From IMG/VR virus record IMGVR_UViG_3300044568_000967, positions 1 to 31,040 of that record: a stretch of 31,040 nucleotides of DNA. One strand, 5' to 3'. Shown one piece after another: positions 1,432 to 26,671 of the stretch. Numbering within the stretch: the stretch's first letter is position 1; every line of letters begins with the position of its first letter. The position numbers and the translations under genes were made by a program. This stretch comes from a virus. The notes below the pieces were generated by a model. That model was not told the DNA's origin, did no database searches, and saw only the letters and a list, made by a program, of their open reading frames with translations.

Positions 1432-3894
1432 ATGGGAAATATAATTAAAGAATGGGTTAAGTCCGTAATCGTTGAAGCTAATATTAAACGAGAGGTTGTT
1501 GTTTATGCTGGTAGATTCCAACCATTTCACAATGGTCACTATGCAACATACTCACATCTTGTTAAAAAATTTGGTAAAGAAAATGTCTTTATAGGTACTT
1601 CAAATCAACAAGGTGGGCCGAGACATCCATTTAATTTCAAAGAGAAACGTGAGATAATGGTAAAGATGTTTAACATCCCATCATCACAAATTGTTCAAGT
1701 AAAAAATCCATATGCTCCGACTGAAGTCATTTCAAAATTTGACGAAAGTTCTACCGCTTTTATCACTGTAGTTGGTGAGAAAGATGAAGCAAGGTTAGGT
1801 GGTAAGTATTTTAAAAAATACGATGGTAACCCTGAATTTGGATATAAAGAGCATGGATATGTTTATGTATCACCAAAACAACCAAATGCTATAAGCGGAA
1901 CGGATGTTAGGAACTGGTTATCAGCGTCTGAAGATTCTCAAAGAAAAGCTGGATTTAAAAAAGCTTATCCAAAATTTGACCCTAAAATTTACAATCTGAT
2001 TTCAACTCGATTATTAAAAGTGGAATCGATAATGGAAGAGTTCTTTAAAAGATTTGACATCAAGTCTTTGTTAGAAGGAGCTACATATGGAGCTGAAGCT
2101 GGTGAACCCGACACCATGTTTGTTATGCCGGGAAAAACTCGAAAACTTGGAGTAAAAAATCCCGGTCAAAAGGATGATGTCTGGTTTGTAAATGGTGGTT
2201 ACACTCAAATGCACTTTCCAAAAGCTGATGTTATCATTTCACCCGATGCTAAAGGTAGTTCTGATTACTATCAATATTCTTCCAAAAGAAATATTAGAAA
2301 TAATACTGATTTAGAAATACCACCCGTAAGTGATGATTTCACCACAGCCCAATCGGGAAGAAAAGAAGTTGATGTTCAAGATTTAAAAAAAGAACATGCG
2401 ATTCGAATTGGGTATGAAATCATAGAATATTCCATTGGAAAATTACCCCTTACTGAAAACTCCACAAGTATAGCTTATAATTTAGGTATGGAATTTTTAA
2501 ACTTTTTAGATGAGGATATTACTATTCCAATTAACATAGGTGACACTGTACTTGGTGGTAAATTTAAAAACAAAAGAGTAGTCGTAAAATCAATTGGTAA
2601 AAATGAAAAGGGTGATATCACAATTAATGATAAACCACTTCTTAAATTCAGATTGATTGATAAACTTGACGAAGGTATGTTAATGGAAGGTGGTGCTTAT
2701 GGACATATGGCTCACCCATTTGATACTGAAATGAATCTCACGTTTGGTGATTTAAAACAAATCATTAGTGGTGCTTTAAATGGTGAGTTGGAACTTGCCA
2801 GAGAAAAAACCGATGGTCAAGCTCTTGCCATTTCATGGAGAGATGATAAGGGTGGGTTGATTGCTGCTAGAAATAAAGGACATCTTGCTAATCGTGGTGA
2901 GAAAGCTCTTGATATTAGTGGAGTTGCAAGTAAGTTCCAAGGTCGTGGTGGTCTTACCGATGCTTACAACTTTGCCATGAAAGATTTGACATCGGCTATT
3001 AAAAGTTTGTCAAAGGCTCAACGAGATAAGATATTTAAACAAGGTGCAAAGTTCATGAACCTTGAAGTAATATGGCCTACGTCCGTTAACGTAATCCCAT
3101 ATGGCCAACCTCTTTTGGTATTTCATAATACAACCGAATATGATGAGAGTGGTGTGGCTATTGGTGCTGAGCAAAGTGATGCTAAAGTATTGGCTGGTAT
3201 GATTAAACAAGTTAATGCTGACGTTCAATCAAAATATACAATCCAAGGCCCACCTGTACAACAATTACCAAAGTCACAAAAACTTACATCATTAAAGTCA
3301 AAGTTTGAATCTCAACTTGGTAAGTTGCAAAAGCAATTCAATTTAAAAGATACGGATGGTGTAGCTGAATATCACCAGAGATGGTGGGAAAATTATGTTG
3401 ATACAAAATCACCATCTACAATTGACAACAAAACAAAAATGGGTCTTGTAAAACGATGGGCTTTCTACGACAAGTCATTCCGATTGGATAGTAAAAATAT
3501 AACCGATTCTAAAGTATTAGAATGGGCTCAAGGTGTCGACAAGAATGACCATGCTAAAATTGCAAAAGATAACATTAGACCATTTGAAGATATTTTCTTG
3601 GGTGTGGGTGCCGAGGTTCTTTCGTTTATGTCATCTGTATTGACCGTCAACCCCGATACAGCCGTTCGTAACATGAAAGACCGACTTGACCAAACAATCA
3701 AAGATGTTCAGAAATTAGGTGACCCTAAAAAGATTGCAAAATTAAGATTAGAATTAGAAAGACTTGCTGCTATTGGTGGTAAAGATAAGATTGTACCAAA
3801 TGAGGGTATTGTCTTTGTTTATAAAGGAAACACTTACAAACTCACTGGCACATTTGCACCATTGAATCAGATACTTGGTCTTTTCTATGAATAA
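1432..3894 (+). CDS. Two-domain nucleotidyltransferase: NMNAT-like N-terminus, ligase-like C-terminus
   Basis: An 820-residue protein. Residues 20-195 are an HxGH nucleotidyltransferase of the NMN adenylyltransferase/cytidylyltransferase class: GRFQPFHNGH at 27-36 and ISGTDVR at 154-160, matching the family ISxTxxR motif. Residues ~370-412 look like a small beta-barrel module. The C-terminal part has the ordered motifs of covalent nucleotidyltransferases (RNA/DNA ligases): KTDG at 459-462 (motif I), LEVIW with Glu545 (motif III), EGIVF at 791-795 (motif IV) and Lys803 (motif V). A helical insertion of about 170 residues lies between motifs III and IV. Boxes of type L-x-E-G-x-x-Y-G recur at 213-220 and 417-424, where domains appear to join. 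Start ATG 1432 has no clear Shine-Dalgarno. The HxGH domain is well supported; the ligase reading is an inference and the substrate is unknown. Confidence 0.75.
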   Translation: MGNIIKEWVKSVIVEANIKREVVVYAGRFQPFHNGHYATYSHLVKKFGKENVFIGTSNQQGGPRHPFNFKEKREIMVKMFNIPSSQIVQVKNPYAPTEVISKFDESSTAFITVVGEKDEARLGGKYFKKYDGNPEFGYKEHGYVYVSPKQPNAISGTDVRNWLSASEDSQRKAGFKKAYPKFDPKIYNLISTRLLKVESIMEEFFKRFDIKSLLEGATYGAEAGEPDTMFVMPGKTRKLGVKNPGQKDDVWFVNGGYTQMHFPKADVIISPDAKGSSDYYQYSSKRNIRNNTDLEIPPVSDDFTTAQSGRKEVDVQDLKKEHAIRIGYEIIEYSIGKLPLTENSTSIAYNLGMEFLNFLDEDITIPINIGDTVLGGKFKNKRVVVKSIGKNEKGDITINDKPLLKFRLIDKLDEGMLMEGGAYGHMAHPFDTEMNLTFGDLKQIISGALNGELELAREKTDGQALAISWRDDKGGLIAARNKGHLANRGEKALDISGVASKFQGRGGLTDAYNFAMKDLTSAIKSLSKAQRDKIFKQGAKFMNLEVIWPTSVNVIPYGQPLLVFHNTTEYDESGVAIGAEQSDAKVLAGMIKQVNADVQSKYTIQGPPVQQLPKSQKLTSLKSKFESQLGKLQKQFNLKDTDGVAEYHQRWWENYVDTKSPSTIDNKTKMGLVKRWAFYDKSFRLDSKNITDSKVLEWAQGVDKNDHAKIAKDNIRPFEDIFLGVGAEVLSFMSSVLTVNPDTAVRNMKDRLDQTIKDVQKLGDPKKIAKLRLELERLAAIGGKDKIVPNEGIVFVYKGNTYKLTGTFAPLNQILGLFYE

Positions 3895-5059: not shown

Positions 5060-7189
5060 ATGGGTACTAAAAAAGATTTATATGTTAAGTTGGTAGAATC
5101 TCTCCAAAAATTACAAGAAGAAAACGAACCCACAAACCCAGCTCTTTGGTCAAGAGCCGTTGCTGCTGCTAAAGCTAAATATGATGTGTATCCATCTGCG
5201 TATGCTAACGCATTTGCTTCTAAATGGTACAAAGAAAAAGGTGGTAGTTGGAAAACCAAAAAAGAATCTATAAGTGAAGATAGCCCATGTTGGGATGGCT
5301 ATAAACAAGTGGGTATGAAAATGAAAAACGGAAAACAAGTACCAAATTGTGTACAAGAAGGTTCTACATTTAAAATTACAAATACAATTACTAAAAAAGA
5401 ATGGGCTAAAACGCCAAAGGATTATAAATCGGTAATTGATGGTGTACATTATGTAATGAAGATGACCGATAAAGGCACAGCATTAGTTCCTGTTAAGATT
5501 GTTGAAATGACAGTAACCGAAGCAAATGTTGGTGATTTCGAGATTGGTGATTTTGTTCATTTTAAATCTAAAAACAAAACCGGAATGGTAATGAAGATTA
5601 GTGGTAACAAAGTTACTATTAATACCCTTAATGGACCTTTTACTGGTGATATTAAAGATATTCAAGTTTTATATCAAGATGGTGTTGAAGAATCACACAG
5701 CGGTGACCCAAATGACCGATATGTTGTTAGACCATGTAAGAATCCAAAAGAACCATGGGCTGTATGGGAAGGTGAAGTTAGGGTAAAGGGATTCGCTACC
5801 AAAGAAGAAGCCCAAGCATTTGCAGACGCAAAAAACAAAGAACAATTTGGTGAGGCTACTGATTCTGAAGAAGAAGATTTTCATATGAAGCTTGACAAGT
5901 TGGTTCATTCCACATTTGGTATGAGTCCTGACGAAGAAAAGAACGAAGCAACTACATCAGATGTAATCAAAGATTTAGATAAAGTAAAAAATGATTTACT
6001 TAAAAAAATCGAGGTATTGATTGCTAAAAAGAAAAAACTTTATTCCGATGTTGACATCGAATCTCCAATGAGTGATGATGAAAAAAAACTGGATAAAGAA
6101 ATTGCAGATTTATTCTCAAAAATCAATCAATTAGTTCTTCAGAAACGAAACTTGAAAAAAGAATCTGTAACTGAAGGTAATGCTTTTACCGGCGCTTTGT
6201 TTAAAGCTCGTCAAGAAGGATTGACCGAATTCGAATTTAACGGAAAAATGTATCCTGTTAAAAAGCTCGATGAGGAATCTGATGAAAAAGAAGAAAAGTT
6301 AGAAGAATCAAAAACTAACATTCTTAAAAAAATCATCAAAGAAGAATATCACGCTATTAAATCATTCATGGAACAAAATGGTATGGAGATTGGTAAAGTC
6401 TATTCTAATCCCGTAGCAAAATCATTCATCAAAGAAGATGAAGAAGAAGTTGTTGATGAGTATGATGTTGAAAACTATGAAGAGACTGTTGATTTCAAAG
6501 AGTTTTTAGAATCTTACATGAAATCTGAAAGAGCCGAATTGCGAGAGTTGAAATTTAAATCAGCCGGCGTTAAAGAATTACTTACTACAATTTTCAACAA
6601 TAAAAATCTATTACCTAAACTTGGATTTAAGACATTCAAAGAAGTTCTTGAATTCATAAAGTTTGGTGACCAAGAAGAACAAGCTGAACTCGAAACAAAA
6701 CTTAAAAAGTTAGGCGTTCAAGTTCCTGTTTTTGAATCCAATCTAAAAGAAATGAATCTTGCTTCGGCTGGAGTTAAAGAAGTGTTGAAACAATTATATT
6801 CTGATAAGAAGCTTGTACAATATTTGGGATTCAAAGACTTTAAAGGTGCTGTCTACTTTATCAAAAATGGTATGTGGTCAGACTTTGAAGAACTCCGTGA
6901 TGATATTGCAAAATACAAAAAACAATTGGGTGAGGCTGAATACCAAGGTCGTAAAGTAAAACTTGGTAAGATTATGCAGGGTGATGTTAAGAAGTTCAAA
7001 GTATACGTTAAAAACGACAAAGGTAATGTTGTTAAAGTAAACTTTGGTCAAGGTGGTGATGCTAAAGGTGGTACTATGAGAATTCGTAAGAATAATCCAG
7101 AGGCTAGAGCATCATTCAGAGCACGTCACAATTGTGATAGTCCAGGTCCAAGATGGAAGGCTCGTTATTGGTCTTGTAAAAAGTGGTAA
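5060..7189 (+). CDS. Modular 709-residue phage protein, putative processed head protein
   Basis: Residues 27-66 carry a W-S-R-A-V-A-A-A-K-x-K-Y-D-V-Y-P-S-A-Y-A-N-A pattern followed by KWYKEKGG, a conserved phage domain (I believe the DUF5872 type). After it come SPCW...VPNC (74-96), a KOW/SH3-like strand region (~155-200), an RPCKNP...GFATKEEAQAFA module (~225-265), a coiled coil (~300-365), and the EGN-F...FEFNGKMYPV module (~372-403) that also occurs in the protein at 15725. A duplicated ~63-residue unit follows (6539-6931), then a C-terminal cysteine domain with S-F-R-A-R-H-N-C and YWSCKKW. Linkers ESISE (69-73) and ESVTE (368-372) separate modules and fit a hydrophobic-x-E protease site. 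AAGGA precedes ATG 5060. No enzyme motif is visible. Confidence 0.8.
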   Translation: MGTKKDLYVKLVESLQKLQEENEPTNPALWSRAVAAAKAKYDVYPSAYANAFASKWYKEKGGSWKTKKESISEDSPCWDGYKQVGMKMKNGKQVPNCVQEGSTFKITNTITKKEWAKTPKDYKSVIDGVHYVMKMTDKGTALVPVKIVEMTVTEANVGDFEIGDFVHFKSKNKTGMVMKISGNKVTINTLNGPFTGDIKDIQVLYQDGVEESHSGDPNDRYVVRPCKNPKEPWAVWEGEVRVKGFATKEEAQAFADAKNKEQFGEATDSEEEDFHMKLDKLVHSTFGMSPDEEKNEATTSDVIKDLDKVKNDLLKKIEVLIAKKKKLYSDVDIESPMSDDEKKLDKEIADLFSKINQLVLQKRNLKKESVTEGNAFTGALFKARQEGLTEFEFNGKMYPVKKLDEESDEKEEKLEESKTNILKKIIKEEYHAIKSFMEQNGMEIGKVYSNPVAKSFIKEDEEEVVDEYDVENYEETVDFKEFLESYMKSERAELRELKFKSAGVKELLTTIFNNKNLLPKLGFKTFKEVLEFIKFGDQEEQAELETKLKKLGVQVPVFESNLKEMNLASAGVKEVLKQLYSDKKLVQYLGFKDFKGAVYFIKNGMWSDFEELRDDIAKYKKQLGEAEYQGRKVKLGKIMQGDVKKFKVYVKNDKGNVVKVNFGQGGDAKGGTMRIRKNNPEARASFRARHNCDSPGPRWKARYWSCKKW
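6539..6931 (+). repeat. Internal duplication within the 709-residue protein
   Basis: Two ~63-residue copies (6539-6727 and 6743-6931) share the core SAGVKE(L/V)L, then a basic patch, then LGFK(T/D)FK and FIK. They are separated by a short ESNLKE linker. The nucleotide sequences have clearly diverged, so the duplication is old. Confidence 0.7.
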
Positions 7190-7218: not shown

Positions 7219-7230
7219 AAACAAGTTTTG

Positions 7231-8178
7231 ATGAAGGTTTACCACGTCTACATAATTCGTAACAGAGAACCAGAGACATTTGAATTAATAACTCATATGT
7301 ATTCTTGTATAAATCACAGGAACGTCAACCCAGATGTTCCATTGTCTTTAATAACGGATTCAAAAACAAAAGAATTCTACGATAAATGGAAAATCACAAG
7401 TTTATATGACGAAGTGATTACAAATTTCTTTGACGACTACCCATATGATAGAATATCTCATAATTTTTGGGCGTCTCCAAAGATTTGGGCTATGGGTAAG
7501 TTAAAAGCTCCATTTATTATACTCGATACTGATTTACTATTACACAATCCGTTAAGTACATACACAAATTGTGACCTTGCGTATCTACATAGAGAGACTA
7601 GCGTCTCATATCCAAACATTTTTGATGTACATGGGCCGGAAGGGTTTGTTTGGGACGATGATATGTTGAAATCGTTCAGAAACACCCAACCGATGAATTG
7701 TGCTGTAATTGGTATGTTTAATGATTCGTTCAAATCTGATTTTGTGAAACGTTATTTTGATTTTGTATTGGATTCGAGTGGTGATGTATCATATGCTACC
7801 GAACATTCACATAGAATGCAACCATTATCATCAGCACAAATAATGATGGAACAATGGTTCATCGCTGCTCTTGCTAATTATTGGACATATGTTTTAAATG
7901 TTCCAATAAAAACACAAGCGGTGTGTAAAGTTTTGTATTCATCTGAAGGATTCTTTACATATGATATGGATATGGGTCATGATGTTGCTTCTCCTGAATT
8001 AAACAATACATTGTATCACTTATGGGGCGCTAAACAATATCAAAACGACAAAACCCATGAACTACACATCTCAACCCGAGATATGTTATATGGTGGTAAA
8101 CACCTTGTCGAGTCGAGTTCTCATTATAACATTCTAAAAGAACCATTTGACAAATTGTTGACCGATTTATTTAATTAA
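7231..8178 (+). CDS. Putative glycosyltransferase (GT-A-like, DXD motif)
   Basis: A 315-residue soluble protein. ATG 7231 is preferred over the TTG one codon earlier. Residues 94-107 read as a hydrophobic strand ending FIILDTDLLLHN, the classical strand plus DXD (Asp99-Thr-Asp101) that binds the metal and nucleotide sugar in GT-A glycosyltransferases. A W-A-S-P-K-I-W-A pattern precedes it and N-C-A-V-I-G lies further on, as in the phage/bacterial families annotated as DUF6734-like glycosyltransferases. There is no signal peptide or membrane segment, so it should act in the host cytoplasm. The acceptor is unknown: phage DNA bases, a host surface precursor, or virion proteins rich in Ser/Asn such as the fibre proteins here. 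It stands alone between the modular proteins and the lysis-like cassette. Confidence 0.7.
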   Translation: MKVYHVYIIRNREPETFELITHMYSCINHRNVNPDVPLSLITDSKTKEFYDKWKITSLYDEVITNFFDDYPYDRISHNFWASPKIWAMGKLKAPFIILDTDLLLHNPLSTYTNCDLAYLHRETSVSYPNIFDVHGPEGFVWDDDMLKSFRNTQPMNCAVIGMFNDSFKSDFVKRYFDFVLDSSGDVSYATEHSHRMQPLSSAQIMMEQWFIAALANYWTYVLNVPIKTQAVCKVLYSSEGFFTYDMDMGHDVASPELNNTLYHLWGAKQYQNDKTHELHISTRDMLYGGKHLVESSSHYNILKEPFDKLLTDLFN

Positions 8179-14078: not shown

Positions 14079-14222
14079 ATGTCTTGCGGATGTAACAAAA
14101 ATAAAAATTTAAAGGAAGCTCTTGAAGTCGATGACCTTGAGCAAGTCCGTTATATAATCCGTAGAGAAATTGCAAGAATATTCTTTGATTTATATCGTAA
14201 AAGACAAGTTTGGGAGAAATAA
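14079..14222 (+). CDS. Small 47-residue protein between core and protease genes
   Basis: A short gene starting one base after the preceding stop and ending in TAATG that shares a base with the protease start, so it sits tightly inside the operon. The product begins MSCGCNKNKNLKEAL, with a C-x-C pair that may bind metal, then a helical basic segment (RYIIRREIARIFFDLYRKR). T4 has small core proteins (gp67, gp68) at this spot; this is a candidate for one. No Shine-Dalgarno is evident, and expression probably depends on coupling. The tight packing and coding-like composition support it being real. Confidence 0.7.
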   Translation: MSCGCNKNKNLKEALEVDDLEQVRYIIRREIARIFFDLYRKRQVWEK

Positions 14223-14860
14223 TGAAACAATTATTAATAGATGTTAGTTTATTTGAGATTACACCTCAAATGTTGAAAGAATCACACGATAAAAGTGGTA
14301 GATTCATTGTAAGTGGTGTACTTCAGAGAGCTAATGCTAAAAACCAAAATGGTAGAGTCTATCCCAAAGAAATCCTTGAACGAGAACTCGAAAAATACAA
14401 GGGTAGAGAGATTAGAGAGAATAGAGCTTATGGCGAACTCGACCACCCTGAATCATCGGTAGTTGAATTGAAGAATACTTCACATATCATTCGTGATGTG
14501 TGGTGGAATGGTGATGATGTTGTTGGTCAGGTGGAAATATTAAATACACCTGCTGGTAAAATCTTACAAGAACTGGTTAAGGCTGGTTGTACTGTTGGTA
14601 TTTCATCAAGGGGTATGGGTTCTGTTAAACAAATCAAAGAAGATGGTACTGTTGCTGTTGAAAACGACTTCGAATTGATTTGTTGGGACTTTGTATCAAA
14701 TCCATCAACTCAAGGTGCTTTTTTGAGACCTACAAATGAAGGTGTCATTAAAGAAAGTGTTCAAAGAAAACAAACTAATTATACTAAAGCTAATACCATC
14801 ATGAGAGATATCATTTGTGAAGTTGGTGGTTATTGCGAATGTGATTTTGGAGTAAAATAA
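14222..14860 (+). CDS. 21: Prohead core protease (T4 gp21-like)
   Basis: A 212-residue serine protease of the phage prohead-protease family that matures capsid and core proteins. The start is ATG 14222, which overlaps the previous stop as TAATG; an in-frame TTG 12 bases upstream is less likely. Visible family features are S-G-V-L-Q-R-A-N-A-K-N-Q-N-G-R-V-Y-P-K, the catalytic-His motif GELDHP (His75), W-W-N-G-D-D-V-V-G near 95-102 and the catalytic-Ser motif GISSRG (Ser128/Ser129), then F-E-L-I-C-W-D-F-V-S-N-P-S. Length matches T4 gp21. T4 gp21 cuts after (L/I)xE; many neighbours carry such sites. Confidence 0.95.
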   Translation: MKQLLIDVSLFEITPQMLKESHDKSGRFIVSGVLQRANAKNQNGRVYPKEILERELEKYKGREIRENRAYGELDHPESSVVELKNTSHIIRDVWWNGDDVVGQVEILNTPAGKILQELVKAGCTVGISSRGMGSVKQIKEDGTVAVENDFELICWDFVSNPSTQGAFLRPTNEGVIKESVQRKQTNYTKANTIMRDIICEVGGYCECDFGVK

Positions 14861-15713: not shown

Positions 15714-17458
15714 GGATAGCTAAAATGAAAAAGTTAACACAATTACTTAAAGAATCACAACATTTAGATTATCGTAGGATGAATGTAGGCGAAGATGAAG
15801 AAGGTCAAGGAATGACCAAAGAAGAAAAGCGTGCATTCGTTGAAGCTGTTGCTGCTTACCGCCAATTAGGTGAAATGATTTCACACAAAGGTAATATTTC
15901 AGAAATCCACGATTCAATCAAAGGTATTGTTGAAAACGCAAATAACCTTACCTTAAAAGAAACCGGTGATTGGTTTGATAGAGTAACTGTTCAGAGACAT
16001 ATGAAATCTATGAACGAATCATTCAAGGTTTTCTCAAACACAATCAAAGAGGTATCTACCTTACAACAAAGATTAGAATCATCTTACGATGAAATCGGTG
16101 AGGTTCTTGGTAAATACTACGAAATCAAAGAAGGTAATGAGTTTGGTGCTGAAAGAGCAAAAGCTATCGCTGCTGGTGATGATTCATTTGAAGTTGATGG
16201 TAAATCCTATAAAGTAACCGGTGTAGACGCTGAAGACAAGAAGAACGCAGACGAGTTCGCTAATGAGTCTATGAAGCTAACATCTTTAATCAAACGAAAC
16301 GAAGAATTAACAGGCAAACAAAAAGAGTTGGATGTTGATAGTGATGGTGACATTGAAGCTGATGACTTGGCTGATTTAAGAGCTGGTAAAAAAGCAGATG
16401 AATCAGTAAACGAAGAAAGAGATTCTAATTTATTTTATGTTTTATATCAAAAAAAAGATGGTAAGTTTTCAAAACCACAAGCAGCAGGATATAAAAGTAG
16501 AGAAGATGCTGAAAAGTTTGCAAAATCATTAAACAACCACTCCACAATGATTCTTGACAAAAATGATTGGGCAGGTGTTAGGGGTGTTAAAGTAACCAAT
16601 GAATCAGTAAACGAAGGCGTTTCTTCTACTGATATGGATAAAATCAAAGGGGCAGTTGAAGCAGCATCTTCATTTATGAGTGTGGGTAGTGAGTTAAAGA
16701 AATTAGGTATGAAATATACTTTCGCTACCGAACCATTACCAATTTATATTATACAACCAACTCCAAATAACAAAGTTGCTATTGTAAATAAGAAATATGC
16801 ATCTAAACCTGATTTTGTGGTTGGTGATATTGCAGTGGGTATAATGGAAGGAAAATTAAACGAAGAAGAAATCAAGTGGAACGCTGTTGAAAACGCAATC
16901 ATCAACTTCTTAAAGATGAACACCAAAATTTTGGATAAAAGAGTTCAAGCTAAAGATACTGATGGAGTTAAAGGTGGTTTAAAATCTATTATTAATGGAT
17001 TAGTTAATGCACAACGAAATTTAAAACTTGAATCAGTAAACGAAGCTGCATATACTGTAAAAGCTGAAAACCCATATCAGTTTGTAAATGGTGCATACGC
17101 AGTTTTAAGTGCATATTTGAGAGATGAAGAACTTGGACCAAAGGGTAAAAGAGAATTACAAGATATCATAAAGTCATTGGAATATATGAGAAAATATTTT
17201 TACTTCAAATTGAGTGAATCACTAAACGAAGAAAAATATACTGTGATTGACCCTATGGGAAATCAAAAAGGTGTTGGTCCAAAAATACAAGCCATATCAA
17301 TGGCTAAGAGATTGGGTGGTGAAAAGACAGGACACTTTGTAGTTGCTAACACAAATGCATTAAAAGCAAGAAGAGCATTAGAAAAGTTTAAAGGTGATTT
17401 TAAAAATCCAAAACTTAAAGATATGATGATGAACCTTTACTATGAATCAGTAAACGAA
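15123..17458 (+). repeat. Dispersed 15-bp coding repeat GAATCAGTAAACGAA (encodes ESVNE)
   Basis: Perfect copies lie at 15123-15137, 16400-16414, 16601-16615, 17030-17044 and 17444-17458, with a one-base variant at 17216-17230 (ESLNE). All are in frame and sit between domains. Identity extends to synonymous positions. More diverged relatives encoding ESISE and ESVTE occur at 5264-5278 and 6161-6175. Confidence 0.9.
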
Positions 17459-17485
17459 CGGATTGTAAAGGAAAAGGTAAAATGA
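15725..17485 (+). CDS. 586-residue modular protein with six ESVNE-type linkers, putative protease-processed head polyprotein
   Basis: Leader MKKLTQLLKE then Ser is a capsid-targeting-like peptide. The body is a string of small domains closed by near-identical linkers: ESVNE at 226-230, 293-297, 436-440 and 574-578, ESLNE at 498-502, and GKLNE at 376-380. Spacing is about 60-83 residues. The first part holds a long helix, then the EGNEF...FEVDGKSYKV module (136-165) also seen in the protein at 5060, then an EF-hand/dockerin-like loop DVDSDGDIEADD (203-214). Later modules include a Y-V-L...GYKSREDAEKFA unit and a KYTVIDPMG...AKRLGG unit. AAGGATAG precedes ATG 15725. Cleavage by the adjacent gp21-like protease is inferred. 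No enzyme motif is visible. Confidence 0.85.
   Translation: MKKLTQLLKESQHLDYRRMNVGEDEEGQGMTKEEKRAFVEAVAAYRQLGEMISHKGNISEIHDSIKGIVENANNLTLKETGDWFDRVTVQRHMKSMNESFKVFSNTIKEVSTLQQRLESSYDEIGEVLGKYYEIKEGNEFGAERAKAIAAGDDSFEVDGKSYKVTGVDAEDKKNADEFANESMKLTSLIKRNEELTGKQKELDVDSDGDIEADDLADLRAGKKADESVNEERDSNLFYVLYQKKDGKFSKPQAAGYKSREDAEKFAKSLNNHSTMILDKNDWAGVRGVKVTNESVNEGVSSTDMDKIKGAVEAASSFMSVGSELKKLGMKYTFATEPLPIYIIQPTPNNKVAIVNKKYASKPDFVVGDIAVGIMEGKLNEEEIKWNAVENAIINFLKMNTKILDKRVQAKDTDGVKGGLKSIINGLVNAQRNLKLESVNEAAYTVKAENPYQFVNGAYAVLSAYLRDEELGPKGKRELQDIIKSLEYMRKYFYFKLSESLNEEKYTVIDPMGNQKGVGPKIQAISMAKRLGGEKTGHFVVANTNALKARRALEKFKGDFKNPKLKDMMMNLYYESVNERIVKEKVK
16130..16222 (+). repeat. Shared ~32-residue module, paired with 6173-6268
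   Basis: Pattern E-G-N-x-F then A-(R/K)-x-x-x-x-G, then F-E-(V/F)-(D/N)-G-K-x-Y-x-V, in two different genes (15725 and 5060). In the 5060 protein it directly follows ESVTE. The nucleotide sequences are diverged. Confidence 0.6.
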
Positions 17486-18070: not shown

Positions 18071-19081
18071 ATGGCAAAATCAAATTTGCTCAAAGAAGCT
18101 ATCGCTGATGCAAAAGCTGTCAAAGAGACTGCTTTAGCTAACGCTCGGTTGGCTTTAGAAGAGGCATTTGCTCCTCGAATTCAATCAATGTTATCCCACA
18201 AGTTAGCTGAAGAGCTAGAAGATGAGGATGAAGATTCAATGGAAGAAGAATTAGATTCATCAGAATTAGGTACAGGCGACAACGCTGAACCATCTGCTGA
18301 TGCTAACGATTCATCTGATATTGAAAATGATACAGACTTGGCTGAAGAAGAGGATACAATGTATTCTGGCGAAGACCGAATGGACGCTGAAGAAGAAATG
18401 GACATGGCTGCTGATTCTGGTGATGGTGAAGAGTACGACTTAACAGGTAACGAAGAAGAAGATACCGAAGAAGATGACCTTGACCTTGAAGCAGTAATCA
18501 GAGAGTTAGAAGACGCAATGGCTTCAGACGATGAAATGACCGAAGAAGATGAAATGGAAGATGAAATGACATCTGAAGAAGATGAAATGGAAGATGAAAT
18601 GACATCTGAAGAAGATGAAGAAGAACTTGACATCAACGAAATTATCCGCACATTGAAAGAAATGGAAGGTGAAGATGAAGAAGAGATGACCGAAGAAGAA
18701 GAAGACGCTACTGAAGGCTACAAAGAAGAATTGGAAGAAGCTTATAAGACTATTCAGTCTATGAGAAAAACCATCAACGAAGTAAACTTACTTAACGCAA
18801 AACTTCTTTACACTAACAAGTTGTTCAGAACTTTCGATTTGAATGAATCTCAAAAAGTTAAAGTTATCGAAAATTTCGATAGAGCTTCAAACTTGAGAGA
18901 AGTAAAATTAGTATTTGCTACATTAGGTGAAAACTTAAATGTTGCTAGAAAAAAGAAAACAGTTGTCAAAGAATCACTCGCTTCTAAACCTATGAAGTCA
19001 ACCGCAGCACCAAGAAAGATTTTATCTGAAGGTGACGCAGTAGCTGAAAGATTTAAGAAGTTAGCTGGTTTAATCAAATAA
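18071..19081 (+). CDS. 22: Prohead core scaffold (T4 gp22-like)
   Basis: A 336-residue, extremely acidic protein that forms the internal core around which the capsid assembles and is degraded by the prohead protease. It starts MAKSNLLKE then Ala, an (L)xE leader, followed by an Ala-rich helix and E-E-A-F-A-P-R-I-Q-S-M-L-S, a typical scaffold N-terminus. Residues ~50-215 are almost entirely Asp/Glu/Ser/Met with tandem repeats. Residues 220-300 form a conserved helical part (INEVNLLNAKLLYTNKLFR; F-D-R-A-S-N-L-R-E-V-K-L-V). The C-terminus has ILSEGDAVAERFKKLAGLIK. T4 gp22 is 269 residues; the excess is the acidic region. TAGGAG precedes ATG 18071, and the capsid gene follows after 28 bases. Confidence 0.93.
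   Translation: MAKSNLLKEAIADAKAVKETALANARLALEEAFAPRIQSMLSHKLAEELEDEDEDSMEEELDSSELGTGDNAEPSADANDSSDIENDTDLAEEEDTMYSGEDRMDAEEEMDMAADSGDGEEYDLTGNEEEDTEEDDLDLEAVIRELEDAMASDDEMTEEDEMEDEMTSEEDEMEDEMTSEEDEEELDINEIIRTLKEMEGEDEEEMTEEEEDATEGYKEELEEAYKTIQSMRKTINEVNLLNAKLLYTNKLFRTFDLNESQKVKVIENFDRASNLREVKLVFATLGENLNVARKKKTVVKESLASKPMKSTAAPRKILSEGDAVAERFKKLAGLIK
18536..18628 (+). repeat. Tandem acidic repeat in scaffold, ~33-bp unit
   Basis: Three adjacent units begin at 18536 (30 bp), 18566 (33 bp) and 18599 (partial). Each encodes M-T-(S)-E-E-D-E-M-E-D-E. Units two and three are nearly identical in DNA over their shared part, which suggests recent slippage expansion. Confidence 0.85.
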
Positions 19082-19109
19082 TAAAAATCAAAAAAAGAAA
19101 AGGATTAAA

Positions 19110-20771
19110 ATGAAAGTAAATAACATTTTAGCTGAATCTGCTGGTTTCAACAAGAGAATGTCTGAAGAGACTAAAGGTGTCGTATCTAAATGGGTCAAGA
19201 CTGGCCTTTTAGAAGGATTATCTTCAGACTTTGAAAAAGCAGGCATGGCTACTCTACTTGAAAACCAAGCAAAACAATTAGTATCTGAAGCATCCGCTAC
19301 AGGTCAATCGGCAAACTCTGAAGAATGGGCTGGTGTAGCTCTTCCTTTAGTTCGCCGTATATTCTCTGAAATCGCAGCGAAGGAATTCGTTTCGGTTCAA
19401 CCTATGAATCTACCATCAGGTCTTGTATTCTACTTGGACTTCAAGTATGGTACAGGTCAGCCCGGTTTCACTACCGGTTCTGGTAAAGATTCACAATCTG
19501 ACTCTGTGTTCGGTGTTACCGAAACCGCAGGTCAAGCTACTGGCGGTCTTTATGGTGCTGGTCGTTTTGGCTACTCCATCAATGATACATCCGTAACATT
19601 TAGTGCTTCTGGTTCGTTTACACCAGCTACTGTTTCAGCTTCAATTGCAGCTGTTGTACCAGGTTCAGCCAGTGATTTAGATGAGTTTGATTATGATACA
19701 GCCTTTACATCAGCTACTGGTGTTACTGGTTCAACTGCATTTTCAAAAGTAACAATTGCTTTAGCCGGATTAACCAATCCTGATTTGGAAGGTGTTCGTG
19801 CATTTACAATTGAAGGTACTGGAATTTCTCAAGTATTCCCAGAGTTTACAAAGAATATCAACAATACAACGCTTTCGTTTATCGTAAGTGGTTCTATTGA
19901 AGCTACATCTGCTGTAAGTAGTCTTGTGGTTAAATACCAAAAGCAACCAACTGACATCACTCGTGGTGATTTTGAACAAACCACTTCTGGTTTTGCTGTA
20001 AATCCAGAAACCGATTTAGGTATTCCTGAATTGAACGTAGAGCTTCGTTCTATTCCAATCGTTGCTAAGACTCGTAAGTTAAAAGCACAATGGACTCCAG
20101 AATTCGCTCAAGATTTGAACGCATACCACTCAATTGATGCTGAAGCAGAATTGACTTCAATGTTATCTGAATACATTTCTCAAGAAATCGACCTTGAAAT
20201 CTTGGATATGTTACAACAAAACGCATTAACTGAAGGTCACTGGTCAGCTAAAATTGGATTCCAATGGAATGGTTCAAACTTTGTAGATGCTGCAACCAAT
20301 GGTCAAGCTTACACTCAAGGAACTTGGTTCTCAACATTTGGTACGGTTCTCCAAAGAGTATCTAACCAAATCCACACCAAGACTATGAGAGGTGGAGCTA
20401 ACTTTATGGTGGTTTCTCCTGATGTTGCTACAATCTTGGAATCTATCCCAGGATTCGTATCAAATGGTACGGGTGAAGCAATGCAGTTCGCGATGGGTGT
20501 ATCTCAAGTAGGTTCATTCGCAAACCGTTACACTGTTTACAAGAACCCATACATGCAATCTAACGTAGTATTGATGGGCTTCAAAGGTTCACAATTCTTG
20601 GAAACTGGCGCTGTTTACGCTCCATATATCCCATTGATTATGACTCCGTTGGTGTACGACCCGAAAAACTTCCAACCTCGTAAGGGTGTAATGACTCGTT
20701 ACGCGAAGGAAATGATTCGTGGTGAGTTCTACGGTAAAGTGTTCGTTCATGGTTTAGAAACTTTATCTTAA
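19110..20771 (+). CDS. 23: Major capsid protein (T4 gp23-like)
   Basis: A 553-residue HK97-fold capsid subunit. The N-terminal propeptide has an ILAE leader box and ends with QLVSE at 56-60 before Ala-Ser-Ala, closely matching the place where T4 gp23 is cut (after Glu65). ALPLVRRIFSEIAAKEFVS and QPMNLPSGLVFYLDFKYG are hallmark gp23 blocks. Residues ~150-300 hold a Ser/Thr/Ala-rich beta insertion with an Ig-like look, at the place of the T4 insertion domain. The C-terminal half (TRKLKAQWTPE; YISQEIDLEILD; NRYTVYKNPYM; PLIMTPLVYDPKNFQPRKG) is strongly conserved. AAAAGGA precedes ATG 19110. A strong terminator follows. Confidence 0.97.
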   Translation: MKVNNILAESAGFNKRMSEETKGVVSKWVKTGLLEGLSSDFEKAGMATLLENQAKQLVSEASATGQSANSEEWAGVALPLVRRIFSEIAAKEFVSVQPMNLPSGLVFYLDFKYGTGQPGFTTGSGKDSQSDSVFGVTETAGQATGGLYGAGRFGYSINDTSVTFSASGSFTPATVSASIAAVVPGSASDLDEFDYDTAFTSATGVTGSTAFSKVTIALAGLTNPDLEGVRAFTIEGTGISQVFPEFTKNINNTTLSFIVSGSIEATSAVSSLVVKYQKQPTDITRGDFEQTTSGFAVNPETDLGIPELNVELRSIPIVAKTRKLKAQWTPEFAQDLNAYHSIDAEAELTSMLSEYISQEIDLEILDMLQQNALTEGHWSAKIGFQWNGSNFVDAATNGQAYTQGTWFSTFGTVLQRVSNQIHTKTMRGGANFMVVSPDVATILESIPGFVSNGTGEAMQFAMGVSQVGSFANRYTVYKNPYMQSNVVLMGFKGSQFLETGAVYAPYIPLIMTPLVYDPKNFQPRKGVMTRYAKEMIRGEFYGKVFVHGLETLS

Positions 20772-21615: not shown

Positions 21616-24600
21616 ATGGCCAATTACACAGGGTCTTTTAGTGGTTCATTTCAGGGAACAATTAGTGGTTCACTACTTGGTAGTGGAATCGTATCTGGTT
21701 CACCGCAAATTGATTTCAATGATATTGTTAACAAACCAACTACAATACAACCATTTCAGGCAAATTCTATTGTTTCAAACAATAGGTTTAGGGAAGTAAC
21801 ATATCCTGCAATTTCAGCATCTACTTCTACAAGATTTACTACGATTGAGGCTAATGTAAGCACACTATCTGGTCAAATACAAGCGGCAGTATCAGGCACA
21901 GTCCCTCCGGGAACAATTAGTGGTTCTGCTCAAATTGCAGCATTTGGATATTTAACATCCGCTTCAGCGGCTGCTGCAGGATTTGGTAGTGGTGGGGGCG
22001 GCTCAACTGATATTTCAGCTTTAAATACCTTCACAGGTTCTGCTCAAACATCTTTAACAGCCCTTAACTCTGCTACAAGTTCTTTCATAACAAATGGTCA
22101 GACATCATCAATGTCGGTTGCTACGGCTTCATTTATAAGTTCTACATTCATTTCAGCCTCTGCTGCTGCAAGTGGATTTGGTAGTGGTGGTGGAGAAACT
22201 TACACCGCTGGTCTTGGAATTACAATTACATCAAATGTTATTACACTTAATACATCATCAACTCACTTTATTCAAGGTGTATCTGCTTCTGCCGCTGCAA
22301 GTGGATTTGGAAGCGGTGGTGGTTCAAATACAGCACCAACAATTGCAGACCAAAGTATGTCTGCGGTACCAGAAAGTTCATCTGCTGGATATGAAGTAGG
22401 TCTTATTACCGCAACCGATGTGGAGGGTAATGTTATTACATTTGGAGCATTTACAATTTCAAATGTTTTTTTAAATTCAAACCCATCGGTAAACTTAACT
22501 TCATCGCTGGGTGGAACCTCATTATTTGACCCATCAATAGACCCATTTCAAGCAAATAGTTCAGGAGTTATTACTCGTAAAAATAGTGTTTTCTTAAATG
22601 CTGATGTAGCCGATAGATATGTGTATCTTGCTACGGCTACCGATGCGTTTTCTACCGCTACCGGCTCTGGTTTAATTACCATTCCAATTTCACAAGACGC
22701 GTCATCTTCAATTGGTAATAATGGTCAAACTTATTTCATTATTGAATCTGCTACTGGTAGTGATAATCTAACAACTATTTCAAATGGTAGAACCATAGAT
22801 GATGTGACATTTTCATCTGCTGTATCTCAAATGTGGTTAGTAAAATCAAATCCAATTGGGTATGTTAGATTTACAAACGGAACAACACAATATACAGGTT
22901 CCACATCACTCGCTCTTGAGTTAGCTCAAAACGTAAGTGGTTCAGGTTTAACTTTTGATTCAAGTTCTACTATTGGTATTGAAATTACGGCATCTGAAAC
23001 TTCATTTGAAACAACTAAACAATTTAGAAATCACACATTAAGTATAGCTAAAAACTTTGAACCAAGTGGTTCTATGATACCAAGTAGTAGTAACCTAAAT
23101 ACAAATGGTGCAAGAAGTGGAAGTACAATAGCTACATTAACTTGGACTGATGCTGAAAGTAATACTTTAAATAACTCAACTTTTACATTAACATCAAATG
23201 CTGGTTTATCATCAAGTTGGAATGGTAGTTATGTATATACCATCAACGCTACGGGAAGTATAAGTGCCGGAACCTATTTTGTAAGCGCAAGTGTTAAAGA
23301 CCAACATGGATTTAGATTTGGTAGTAGTTCAGTATCATTTACTATTGTTCAAGCTGGAACGGGGTCTCTTACTACAAACGGAACATTCTATGTAATTGAA
23401 TCCGCAGTAAGTGGTAATTTAATTTACACTAGCACCAATGGTAGAAGTGGTACTCAAGGTAATTTAGGAGTGACATATTCACCACAATACAACTCTGCGA
23501 CAGTAGCATCATTCACATCATCAGATGCGAGAATTGGTATAAACACTGCTGGAAATTTAAGTGTTACTGGTATAGGTATTAGTGGTTCTGCCGGTGGTTC
23601 GTTTCCTGGAACTATAACACCCACGGTTACTTGGAGAGACCAATACAATAATGTGGGTAGTGGCTCTATTACAATTAACATTGCAGTTAACAATGCTCCA
23701 ACTGTAAGTTTGGATAATCCAGATACGGACAATCAAAACACAAACTTGGCTACCACAGGAACACGACTAACAAGATTAACTTGGGCAGACGCTGAAAGTG
23801 ACGTATTAAGTGTTCAGACATTTACACTAACAGGAGCAGGCGCTGCGTCGCTATCAAGTTCATATAATGGTTCTAATATATTTGGTATCCATGCAGCTAG
23901 TAATTTAGCAGCAGGGACTTATGGGTACACCGCAAGTATTGAAGATGTTTTCGGATTTAGAACTGGAAGTTATAAGGATATTATTACAATAGCTCAAGCT
24001 AGTAGTGGTTCTTTATTAAATCCAAACACTTACTATATAGTAGAATCCGCTGTAAGTGGTAACTTTATAACAAGAGATTTGGATGGTAGTGGTTCAGCTG
24101 CTAGTGCAAGCGTATCATATCCAGCTGGAATTGGAAACCCAACGGCTACTAACTTTTCAGCATCAGATGCTTTTGCAGTGGTTACAATTCACCCAACTAC
24201 TGCTGTATTGAGTATAAATCAAAATTTTAGTGGTTCGGTATCATTACCAACTGAAGGTAATTCGTTCACCGCTAGAATATTTTGGAACGATATATATCAA
24301 AGTGGAAGTGGTGATATTAATATTAGTGTAACTAATAACCTAAACCCAACCGCAAGTTTTGCAAATGCAAATTTAACTGCGCCCGTTACAACTAATACAA
24401 CACTTGTAACAGTTACTTTAACTGACCCTGAAGTTACTACTCCATTTTCAATGTCGTTAAGTGGATTGTCTGCAACCTCTATGTCAGCTGTTCCACAAAA
24501 CGTAGGAAGTTCTTCATACTTGTTAAAAAATAGTGTAGACATAAATGATGGTGTTACTTTGTCTTACACCGCGAGTGTATTTGACGCTTATAATAATCAA

Positions 24601-25260
24601 GTTAATTTTAATAGACAATTAACAATAGGTAATCCGATTGCTGCTAATCCCTCTATTTTCATATACGCATCATCAAGAGGTGCTGGGTCTACACTACCAG
24701 CAACCTACAATACTTTATTGGGAACTACATCTACAAGTGGTACTCCATTATACGCATTTGAGGAAGGTAATCTTGGAAAAGATGGTGCTACAATTCCCCT
24801 TACAGGTGGTGCTATGGATTTAATATTTAGTGGTTCTGGCACGGATTTATACGCTACAATTAGTAGTAGTATGGGAGTTTTATCTCCAAACTTTACTGTA
24901 AATCCTCAAGAATTATTAGGTGCTGGTAATAAATTAATATACATTGTATATCCATCATCATCTGATTTAGGTTCAAGACCAACCTCTACTACTGATAATT
25001 TAAGTCCCGGAAACACAACGCCCGGTCAATACACTATGTGGTATGATGGTGGTGCTGGTGATGAAAGTGCGATTGGTTCTCAACTTAATAATTTCACTAT
25101 TTCAAATGGCTACACCGGAAGTGATGGTACTATCTATGCAGCTGGTCAATCATATCAAAGTTGGACCGTTATGGGTGGTAGCGCGGCATTGGCCAAATTT
25201 GCAGGTACAGCCTATAAATTCTTTATTGTACCATCAAGTGGTTCTGACCCAACACCATAA
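21616..25260 (+). CDS. Giant tail-fibre/adhesin protein with Ig/cadherin-like repeats (1214 aa)
   Basis: The N-terminal ~235 residues are a fibre shaft made of repeats: FSGSFQGTISGSL, SGSAQIAAFGYLTSAS and three SASAAA(S/A)GFGSGGG boxes. From ~238 a cadherin/Ig-like series begins (NTAPTIADQSM...ATDVEGN). Two related ~190-residue units follow, marked by L-T-W-(T/A)-D-A-E-S, then S-(S/Y)-x-N-G-S, then GTYxxxAS(V/I)xDxxGFRxGS and G-S-L-x-x-x-x-(T/F)-Y-x-(V/I)-E-S-A-V-S-G-N. The C-terminal ~170 residues (NPSIFIYASSRGAG to the end) are unique and may be the tip. GGAG precedes ATG 21616. There is no signal peptide, so it is a virion part rather than a secreted adhesin. Which fibre it forms is unknown. 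Confidence 0.85.
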   Translation: MANYTGSFSGSFQGTISGSLLGSGIVSGSPQIDFNDIVNKPTTIQPFQANSIVSNNRFREVTYPAISASTSTRFTTIEANVSTLSGQIQAAVSGTVPPGTISGSAQIAAFGYLTSASAAAAGFGSGGGGSTDISALNTFTGSAQTSLTALNSATSSFITNGQTSSMSVATASFISSTFISASAAASGFGSGGGETYTAGLGITITSNVITLNTSSTHFIQGVSASAAASGFGSGGGSNTAPTIADQSMSAVPESSSAGYEVGLITATDVEGNVITFGAFTISNVFLNSNPSVNLTSSLGGTSLFDPSIDPFQANSSGVITRKNSVFLNADVADRYVYLATATDAFSTATGSGLITIPISQDASSSIGNNGQTYFIIESATGSDNLTTISNGRTIDDVTFSSAVSQMWLVKSNPIGYVRFTNGTTQYTGSTSLALELAQNVSGSGLTFDSSSTIGIEITASETSFETTKQFRNHTLSIAKNFEPSGSMIPSSSNLNTNGARSGSTIATLTWTDAESNTLNNSTFTLTSNAGLSSSWNGSYVYTINATGSISAGTYFVSASVKDQHGFRFGSSSVSFTIVQAGTGSLTTNGTFYVIESAVSGNLIYTSTNGRSGTQGNLGVTYSPQYNSATVASFTSSDARIGINTAGNLSVTGIGISGSAGGSFPGTITPTVTWRDQYNNVGSGSITINIAVNNAPTVSLDNPDTDNQNTNLATTGTRLTRLTWADAESDVLSVQTFTLTGAGAASLSSSYNGSNIFGIHAASNLAAGTYGYTASIEDVFGFRTGSYKDIITIAQASSGSLLNPNTYYIVESAVSGNFITRDLDGSGSAASASVSYPAGIGNPTATNFSASDAFAVVTIHPTTAVLSINQNFSGSVSLPTEGNSFTARIFWNDIYQSGSGDINISVTNNLNPTASFANANLTAPVTTNTTLVTVTLTDPEVTTPFSMSLSGLSATSMSAVPQNVGSSSYLLKNSVDINDGVTLSYTASVFDAYNNQVNFNRQLTIGNPIAANPSIFIYASSRGAGSTLPATYNTLLGTTSTSGTPLYAFEEGNLGKDGATIPLTGGAMDLIFSGSGTDLYATISSSMGVLSPNFTVNPQELLGAGNKLIYIVYPSSSDLGSRPTSTTDNLSPGNTTPGQYTMWYDGGAGDESAIGSQLNNFTISNGYTGSDGTIYAAGQSYQSWTVMGGSAALAKFAGTAYKFFIVPSSGSDPTP
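21911..22192 (+). repeat. Fibre shaft DNA repeats shared with 25565-25883
   Basis: Two blocks recur nearly identically in the next gene. The SGSxQIAAFGYLTSASAAAAGFGSGGG block from 21911 matches one from ~25567. The SFISSTFISASAAASGFGSGGG block at 22129-22192 matches 25820-25883 with only a few base changes. Order and spacing are conserved. Confidence 0.85.
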
Positions 25261-25276: not shown

Positions 25277-26671
25277 ATGCCTACTTTTAGTACCCAATAT
25301 ATTTTAACCAATGGTGCCATCGCAGCCGGAACTGCATTAGCCAATGTTGAATACATAGCTGGAGCTCTTAAAACATATCCAAATACCACACATTTAAATT
25401 TTAGTGCTAGTAATTTTCCTGATAGGTTTACCGAAGGTCAAATTGTTTATGTGAGTGCATCAAATGAACTCTTTAAAATGGGTAAATATTTTGATGACCA
25501 GATTACATTTGCTGATGTAGTAACATCACAATCATTTGAATTTCCAGGAGGTTCTATTCCAGCTGGAACAATAAGTGGTTCTCCCCAAATTGCAGCATTT
25601 GGATATTTAACATCAGCCTCAGCCGCTGCTGCGGGATTTGGAAGTGGTGGTGGAACTGCTACTGATATTTCTGCATTAAACACATTTACAGGTTCTATTC
25701 AGATTCAAGTTAATAACTTAACATCTGCTACAAGTTCATATTTAACTTCAGCCAGTACGGGTTCATTTATATTAGCATCTCAAACCTCTTCAATGAGTGT
25801 ATTGAACGCTTTAACCGCATCATTTATAAGTTCTACATTCATTTCAGCCTCTGCAGCTGCAAGTGGATTTGGTAGTGGAGGAGGAAGCATAAATACTGGT
25901 TCATTTGCAACAACCGGTTCTAATACATTTAAAGGTGAACAAATAATAAGTTCTTCTTTAATCGTAACTAACGAAATTAAAGGTACTAATTCAATATTCT
26001 TACAACCGGATGTTAATGATGGAAGAAAACTTGAAATTTATAATACCGCAGCGACTGATGTTCACATTAAATCTAATGGTGGATTAACTTTCTTGGGTGA
26101 TGATACCAACTATGTATTAGTAGATAATTCTGCTGCACAAACAGTATCAATCACAGGTGTAAATGGTGTATTTGTTAATTCTTCATTAAATGTATCTGGC
26201 TCATTAATCGTAACGGGTTCAATCAATGTACCTGGAAGTGTAATAAATAATTTAACATCATCATTTGCCACTACCGCATCATTTATCTCTGATTTATTCA
26301 TTTCAGCATCTGCTGTAAGAAGTGGATTTGGAACTGCTTTATTTCCAAGTGGGTTATTATCATCATCATTCCAAATCGCTAATGATATTTCAGGCGCATT
26401 TACTTCACTATCATCTTCGTTTGCAAGTAGAATTACTACTCTTGAAGGAGCAGGTGGTGGTAATGGAATATTCACACTTACAGGTTCATTCTACTCAACA
26501 ACAAATAATATTCAAATCACAGGTTCACTATCAGTTGGTAGTGGTTCATTTAAATCGTTTGAAGTTAATTCTGATGGATTTGTAGTTTTGGGTGATATGA
26601 ATAAAGATTTAAATAACGCACCTGAAGGAACAATTGCTTATTCAGGAAGTAATTTTTATCTAATATCTTAA
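25277..26671 (+). CDS. Tail-fibre protein (464 aa) sharing shaft modules with the giant adhesin
   Basis: An N-terminal ~100-residue globular part (MPTFSTQYILTNG to QSFEFPGG) likely attaches to the baseplate or to another fibre. Then come the same IAAFGYLTSASAAAAGFGSGGG and ISSTFISASAAASGFGSGGG modules as in the upstream gene, SFATTGSNTFKGEQ, beta-helical SLNVSGSLIVTGSI repeats, and an ISGAFTSLSSSFASRITTLEGAGGG unit shared with the downstream genes. The short end GDMNKDLNNAPEGTIAYSGSNFYLIS looks like a conserved fibre C-terminus. TTAGGAG precedes ATG 25277. The gap to the previous gene is 16 bases, so the two are co-transcribed. It mixes modules of both neighbours. Confidence 0.85.
   Translation: MPTFSTQYILTNGAIAAGTALANVEYIAGALKTYPNTTHLNFSASNFPDRFTEGQIVYVSASNELFKMGKYFDDQITFADVVTSQSFEFPGGSIPAGTISGSPQIAAFGYLTSASAAAAGFGSGGGTATDISALNTFTGSIQIQVNNLTSATSSYLTSASTGSFILASQTSSMSVLNALTASFISSTFISASAAASGFGSGGGSINTGSFATTGSNTFKGEQIISSSLIVTNEIKGTNSIFLQPDVNDGRKLEIYNTAATDVHIKSNGGLTFLGDDTNYVLVDNSAAQTVSITGVNGVFVNSSLNVSGSLIVTGSINVPGSVINNLTSSFATTASFISDLFISASAVRSGFGTALFPSGLLSSSFQIANDISGAFTSLSSSFASRITTLEGAGGGNGIFTLTGSFYSTTNNIQITGSLSVGSGSFKSFEVNSDGFVVLGDMNKDLNNAPEGTIAYSGSNFYLIS

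Follow-up and report, generated by a model that had tools for sequence, protein, structure and literature searches.

A predicted head-protease polyprotein with NMNAT-type and RNA-ligase-like domains in a T4-type virus record

In a 31-kb virus record with a T4-type head region (IMG/VR record IMGVR_UViG_3300044568_000967; the whole stretch of 31,040 nucleotides analyzed here is referred to as the window), a gene at positions 1432-3894 on the plus strand (which also carries the prohead protease, scaffold-like, and capsid genes described below) has an ATG start and encodes a protein of 820 amino acids plus stop. An earlier note, made from the sequence letters, proposed that this protein fuses an NMNAT-type domain to a ligase-like domain and that its LxEG boxes could be prohead-protease sites, and the open reading frame and all motif coordinates that it quoted are exact. 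The locus raises the question of whether the two halves are indeed such enzymes, why they are kept in one chain, and whether that chain is meant for the virion.

NMNAT-type and RNA-ligase-like halves of the 820-residue protein

The N-terminal domain (residues 16-215; positions 1477-2076; predicted product of 23.0 kDa, pI 9.6) almost certainly has the NMNAT-type fold, and both the Pfam and the Foldseek searches back the earlier assignment. The Pfam domain CTP_transf_like (PF01467) covers residues 24-161 with a score of 29.8 bits against a gathering cutoff of 21 (E value of 5e-8 for residues 1-203), and NadM/NMNAT structures are the best PDB matches (Foldseek, E values from 1.9e-4) of the full-length AlphaFold2 model, which was built from 33 sequences and has a mean pLDDT of 69. 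Like the NadM/NMNAT enzymes, which are Rossmann nucleotidyltransferases with HxGH and S-G-T-x-x-R motifs, the phage domain contains HNGH (residues 33-36; positions 1528-1539) and the ISSTxxR-type motif ISGTDVR (residues 154-160; positions 1891-1911); residues H36, S155, G156, T157, and R160 are invariant in a 33-row alignment. It differs from those enzymes in having a targeting-like extension and in being fused to a ligase-like domain, and its distant relatives lose the first His of HxGH.

The C-terminal domain (residues 420-820; positions 2689-3891; predicted product of 44.5 kDa, pI 9.2) carries ligase motifs I, III, and IV, conserved and in order. An HxxH signature, HMAH (residues 425-428; positions 2704-2715), which is also found in the DUF6267 family, lies upstream of motif I, KTDG (residues 459-462; positions 2806-2817), where K459 is the candidate adenylylated Lys. 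Motif III comprises the invariant E545 in NLEV (positions 3058-3069; MNLEVIWP at residues 542-549), and motifs IV and V, with E791 and K803, fall within EGIVFVYKGNTYKLTG (positions 3802-3849), which includes EGIV (residues 791-794) and YKLTG (residues 802-806). In the aligned C-terminal domains (at least 35% identity), K459, D461, G462, R480, N481, E545, E791, G792, and K803 are all invariant, so that the ligase motif order pointed out earlier is not due to chance. The KxK of motif V is absent: only its first Lys is present, and K803 is followed by L-T-G, which is likewise invariant.

The spacing of 246 residues between motifs III and IV means that the unusual insertion noticed there is real, and much of it forms a confident helical bundle in the AlphaFold2 model of the C-terminal domain (mean pLDDT of 75.8). 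The motif I loop has pLDDT values below 50 in both the domain model and the full-length model. A match to P1 DarA in the PDB profile search (E value of 0.024) is confined to a stretch within this insertion and is regarded as due to chance.

The C-terminal half probably has a ligase-like fold. All six of the best matches of the domain model among 350,542 PDB chains (Foldseek) are T4 RNA ligase 2 or 1, with E values of 0.08 to 0.46 and low TM-scores, none of them individually significant. In BFVD, its own family comes first, followed by proteins that include the DUF6267 protein of cyanophage S-PM2 (E value of 8e-4) and then by many annotated RNA ligases (ranks 15 to 35). Residues 420-820 belong to no Pfam family and gave no ligase match at E values up to 1; PHROG and PDB profile searches also returned no ligase. 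The hhalign comparisons of the C-terminal profile with T4 Rnl1, T4 Rnl2, and DNA ligase were weak (the weak Rnl1 alignment places E545 on NFEF), and in an hhalign test on 146 phage proteins, Rnl1 and Rnl2 fell among the decoys, with DUF6267 in third place. As for the ligase-like half, then, the earlier proposal is supported by the invariant motifs and a Foldseek list headed only by RNA ligases, but no single PDB match is significant.

The phage domain shares with T4 RNA ligases 1 and 2, its best fold matches, the motif order I, Ia, III, IV, V and with Rnl1 the arrangement of EGxV and a Lys 12 to 13 residues later. It differs from both in its long helical insertion between motifs III and IV, its N-terminal HxxH, and the lack of motif V KxK and of significant sequence similarity. 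Because motif V has no second Lys and there is no sequence family match, the domain is referred to here as RNA-ligase-like and not as a member of the Rnl1 or Rnl2 family; we infer that it may have ligase activity.

Putative targeting peptide and head-protease sites

In T4, the gp21 protease cuts after L/I-X-E, and the internal proteins reach the prohead by means of N-terminal targeting peptides of 10 to 20 residues (PMC9026906, PMC5694885). Residues 1-15 of the window protein (positions 1432-1476) form a capsid-targeting-like peptide, MGNIIKEWVKSVIVE/A (the slash marks the predicted cut), that ends in IVE and is modeled as a helix at residues 2-13. Among relatives, [LI]xE is found within the first 24 residues of 33 of the 37 distinct N-termini, compared to 233 of 580 background ORFs, and the peptide is retained ahead of an NMNAT domain, an SH3-like module, a kinase, or a ligase; such constancy before different domains is what would be expected of a targeting signal. 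The other predicted head-protease sites are LLE215/G216 (positions 2068-2079; in LLEGATYG, residues 213-220), at the edge of a low-pLDDT segment, and the pair LDE414/G and LME419/GG (together at positions 2665-2691; the latter in LMEGGAYG, residues 417-424), located before the ligase-like domain. The motif [LI]xE[GAS] thus occurs four times in 820 residues, ending at E15, E215, E414, and E419, each time at a domain edge; in the full-length model, pLDDT values are below 50 at residues 216-316 and 405-424.

The same distribution was seen in 57 nonredundant relatives compared with composition-matched shuffles, bearing in mind that these proteins share common ancestry and the shuffle statistics therefore overstate their independence. 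[LI]xE[GAS] is 7 to 9 times enriched at the boundaries, with 36 occurrences in the first 24 residues (4.2 in shuffles), 51 after the NMNAT domain (7.5), and 67 before the ligase domain (7.1), and is nearly missing from both enzymes, with none within NMNAT (7.6) and 2 within the ligase domain (30.5); the remaining middle segments contain 38 (30.5). Counted by zones, the motif is present after NMNAT in 44 of the 57 proteins (7.6 in shuffles) and before the ligase domain in 47 (7.2). Control motifs with Asp, Lys, Asn, Gln, or Arg in place of the Glu had no boundary pattern in these 57 proteins. In the P1 position before the ligase domain (GGxYGH), 50 of 62 nonredundant relatives have Glu and 12 have Met; in the latter group (LLLM/GGAYGH in L188, L194, L205, L212, and others), the site may have been lost or moved.

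A prohead protease is encoded in the window at positions 14210-14860 (Peptidase_S77, Pfam E value of 7e-34; PHROG head maturation protease, E value of 2.8e-53). It forms part of a head region that also includes the terminase and genes whose sequence and order suggest a portal-type protein, a scaffold-like protein, and a capsid protein. The putative scaffold-like and major capsid proteins (positions 18071-20771, roles assigned from position and sequence) both have [LI]xE[GAS] at residue 9 (LLKE/A and ILAE/S, respectively) and are likely to be other substrates of this protease. Judging from these patterns, the 820-residue protein is probably a head-protease polyprotein, and we infer that it may be packaged, cleaved, and ejected.

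Distantly related proteins have been detected in cyanophage virions. Mass spectrometry of S-CREM2 virions identified gp154, a cytidylyltransferase (3 peptides), together with a kinase, a SAM hydrolase, and several small proteins (PMC10665884, Table 3), and the cyanophage-core cytidylyltransferase T4-GC190, whose cluster adjoins DUF6267 in P-HM2, was found in virions of S-SM1 (PMC3037559). According to the authors of the S-CREM2 study, cytidylyltransferases and such virion proteins may be copurified contaminants (PMC10665884). Short N-terminal peptides ending in FL-x-E are present in S-CREM2 gp154, gp14, gp6, and gp13. A strict targeting pattern, drawn up after the sequences had been seen, marked five S-CREM2 proteins, all five of them virion-detected; a loose pattern, applied to all S-CREM2 proteins, did not predict detection (6/15 versus 46/203, p 0.12) and is therefore not counted as support. 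DUF6267 is absent from the S-CREM2 virion list. These data are evidence on distant homologs of the NMNAT half and not on the window protein itself. Together with the boundary enrichment and the targeting peptide (PMC10665884 and PMC3037559 being the sources of the virion data), they nevertheless make the prohead-protease and virion-delivery idea, which was the last point of the earlier note, its best-supported and most important part.

Two virion-detected S-CREM2 proteins were also noted for targeting-like sequences near their starts, the “Cas9-like” gp12 (FASFMAE/A; L345:7704-10313) and the kinase gp14 (FDAFLTE/E; L345:10579-12846).

Near-obligate pairing, exchangeable cargo, and the DUF6267 link

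The first viral scan yielded 84 whole-protein relatives, and the C-terminal domain was found on more than 500 contigs from viral metagenomes; in the annotated phage collection, the family is represented only in Microcystis phage Mel-JY01 and two metagenomic huge-phage genomes. NMNAT accompanies the ligase domain in 58 of 61 nonredundant complete ORFs, and the segment between or before the two enzymes ranges in length from roughly 130 to over 1,000 residues. This near-obligate pairing and the exchange of cargo described below are computational observations, as are the domain identities and the boundary sites. In the window protein, the middle region (residues 216-351; positions 2077-2484), which corresponds to the variable-cargo position of many relatives, has no Pfam match and is followed by a small SH3-like beta module (residues 352-410; positions 2485-2661), so named from its strands and not from a database match, which is present in 34 of the 61 nonredundant complete relatives.

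The cargo of the relatives includes the PolyA_pol head domain of the CCA-adding enzyme, HD, AAA_33/Zeta kinase, GNAT, ParB, Nudix (in one relative), and DUF5661. The catalytic motifs of the CCA-adding enzyme are intact in the two sequences that were read (in L044, GGAVRD, DFDL, RRRDLT, and EDPLRKLRA). Pfam cannot split the kinase cargo into polynucleotide-kinase-like and Zeta-toxin-like types, and the PDB search was weak; therefore, no claim of 5′-end healing is based on the kinase. In some lineages, the ligase is encoded by a separate gene with its own short peptide, ending in LLKE/GGAYGH (L115, L117, L123, and L126) or LILE/GGSYGH (L003). A 1,907-aa member on a Flavobacteriales MAG contig (L147:525-6245) unites the SH3-like module and a CCA-adding enzyme with both NMNAT and ligase. 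One copy (L043:1-2578) is split into two frames and lacks approximately 72 codons where the ligase domain begins, which could be either an assembly error or a real lesion.

By fold and weak profile comparison, the C-terminal domain is distantly related to DUF6267 (PF19782), a family of unknown function that is common in cyanomyoviruses and is carried by 471 phage records, mostly of that group. A Pfam search found no match to PF19782 in either the whole protein or its C-terminal part; direct profile comparison of the two families was weak (P of 0.007 to 0.05) and superposed the N-terminal half of the shared motifs. DUF6267 proteins contain HxxH, KxDG, NxIxY, FH, and EG[YF]V with a later Lys, in the same order as in the C-terminal domain (EG[YFI]V across both), and profile comparison of DUF6267 with T4 Rnl1 aligned NPEGYVAVDKSGKAVKLV to NIEGYVAVMKDGSHFKIK in the motif IV-V region (P of 0.005); the PDB search with the DUF6267 profile gave chance matches only.

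Apart from the fold match, DUF6267 resembles the phage ligase-like domain in being a genomic partner of a cytidylyltransferase, although it is mostly encoded by a stand-alone gene and not fused. The two genes overlap in P-HM2 and are near neighbors in S-CRM01 and Stenotrophomonas phage DLP_6; in S-PM2, they form one protein with the order opposite to that in the window protein. In HTVC008M, gp128, part of which is ~70% identical to the small SH3-like module of the window protein, adjoins gp127 (DUF6267, E value of 3e-135), gp129 (P-loop kinase, Zeta_toxin/AAA_33), and gp130, a cytidylyltransferase in which no ligase domain was found. These adjacencies and fusions indicate that a ligase-like domain has been fused to, or retained beside, an NMNAT-type domain on more than one occasion.

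Proposed role, alternatives, and known counterparts

The explanation that fits best, and that we hold with moderate confidence, is a virion-delivered, protease-released kit for the repair of RNA ends and/or NAD. The targeting peptide would carry the precursor into the prohead of a T4-like phage, where the gp21-type protease of the phage would cut after Glu at the [LI]xE sites between the domains and release the NMNAT-type nucleotidyltransferase, the middle module, and the RNA-ligase-like enzyme. Ejected into the bacterium along with the DNA, these enzymes could act early in infection by restoring NAD and/or RNA ends, such as those of tRNAs cut by host defense nucleases; extra enzymes specific to each lineage would travel beside the two constant ones. 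The widest form of this reading, that in marine and freshwater T4-like phages the capsid maturation protease divides an enzyme chain into a swappable RNA-end/NAD kit that acts before phage gene expression, is put forward tentatively, its chances being a little short of even.

In tRNA repair, phage RNA ligases have been described as working alongside CCA-adding enzymes, kinases, and phosphoesterases (PMC7824862), which points to RNA-end repair, a role whose chances appear evenly balanced. The NMNAT domain, in turn, points to NAD or an adenylylated intermediate. A virion polyprotein concerned mainly with NAD, in which NMNAT would rebuild NAD after attack by host NADases and the ligase-like domain would be a nucleotidyltransferase acting on a small molecule or a protein, would account for the almost constant NMNAT, the Nudix domain of one relative, the missing second Lys of motif V, and sequence searches in which no known RNA ligase was matched significantly. 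The CCA-adding enzyme and HD cargo, being RNA-end repair enzymes, appear to favor RNA-end repair over pure NAD salvage, and the fold search is headed by RNA ligases, which makes a mainly NAD-centered polyprotein unlikely.

Even less likely is a bifunctional enzyme that stays in the cytoplasm, combines NAD salvage with nucleic acid ligation, and has LxE sites that merely reflect linker composition. Phage pathways that restore NAD, such as NARP1, are known, but linker composition would not readily explain why boundary sites far exceed both shuffles and control motifs and are depleted within the domains, or why the targeting-like peptide is conserved ahead of different domains. The genes around it also serve the head and DNA packaging, and the terminase gene lies downstream of it in the window and likewise in Mel-JY01. 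That the ligase-like domain serves chiefly in virion assembly, with catalysis secondary, as might be suggested by T4 RnlA (gp63), annotated as both RNA ligase 1 and tail fiber attachment catalyst, and by the tail-type genes that precede the polyprotein gene in the window, is highly improbable given the catalytic residues that are invariant down to 35% identity, the NMNAT fusion, the flanking head-protease sites, and the widely different cargo.

The preferred reading, a virion-delivered kit, has counterparts among T4 internal proteins. T4 Alt and IPI-III have a short N-terminal peptide ending in L/I-x-E in a genome that encodes a gp21-type protease, as is the case here, and Alt, an ADP-ribosyltransferase, is an enzyme destined for the host cell, as proposed for the phage polyprotein. 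However, T4 internal proteins lose propeptides from their ends, whereas the window protein would have several enzymes per chain with the sites between them. The polyvalent proteins of phages and plasmids (PMC5512222) are multidomain conflict proteins thought to be codelivered with DNA; the relatives resemble them in having multiple conflict-related domains per chain, and GNAT and other domains are common to both groups. In contrast to polyvalent proteins, which are described as being released by embedded peptidases (PMC5512222), the phage protein has sites that would suit cleavage in trans by the head maturation protease, and a Pfam search of its 820 residues for an embedded peptidase gave no match. 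Furthermore, the 2H domains of polyvalent proteins are reported never to occur with RNA ligases (PMC5512222), whereas the constants of the phage family are NMNAT and the ligase-like domain.

Literature searches returned no description of such a head-protease polyprotein. T4 internal proteins, polyvalent proteins, and RNA repair are known; the apparent novelty is the use of head maturation to separate enzymes. If this is true, a phage head maturation protease would do the job of the polyprotein proteases of RNA viruses, and RNA repair would belong to the injected cargo and not to the early-expressed functions. DUF6267 would then gain a testable function, that of a covalent, RNA-ligase-like nucleotidyltransferase, and the presence of a cytidylyltransferase, a cyanophage core gene product, in virions would become easier to explain.

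Several other products of the window deserve mention. The prohead protease has [LI]xE[GAS] near both ends (MLKE/S and VIKE/S), which fits self-processing as in T4 gp21. Another internal-head protein that undergoes processing may be the 586-aa product of positions 15725-17485, which has a targeting-like start (MKKLTQLLKE/S), six ESVNE-like boxes, and four sites of the [LI]xE[GAS] type. A 709-aa protein (positions 5060-7189) is a patchwork of pieces with matches to several PHROGs that are unrelated to one another and have no known function; it has [LI]xE[GAS] sites at residues 13, 416, and 625. A DUF6734 protein is encoded at positions 7228-8178, between the polyprotein and terminase genes, and two long tail-fiber-like ORFs (positions 21616-25260 and 25277-26671) have repeated SAAASGFGSGGG segments in common.
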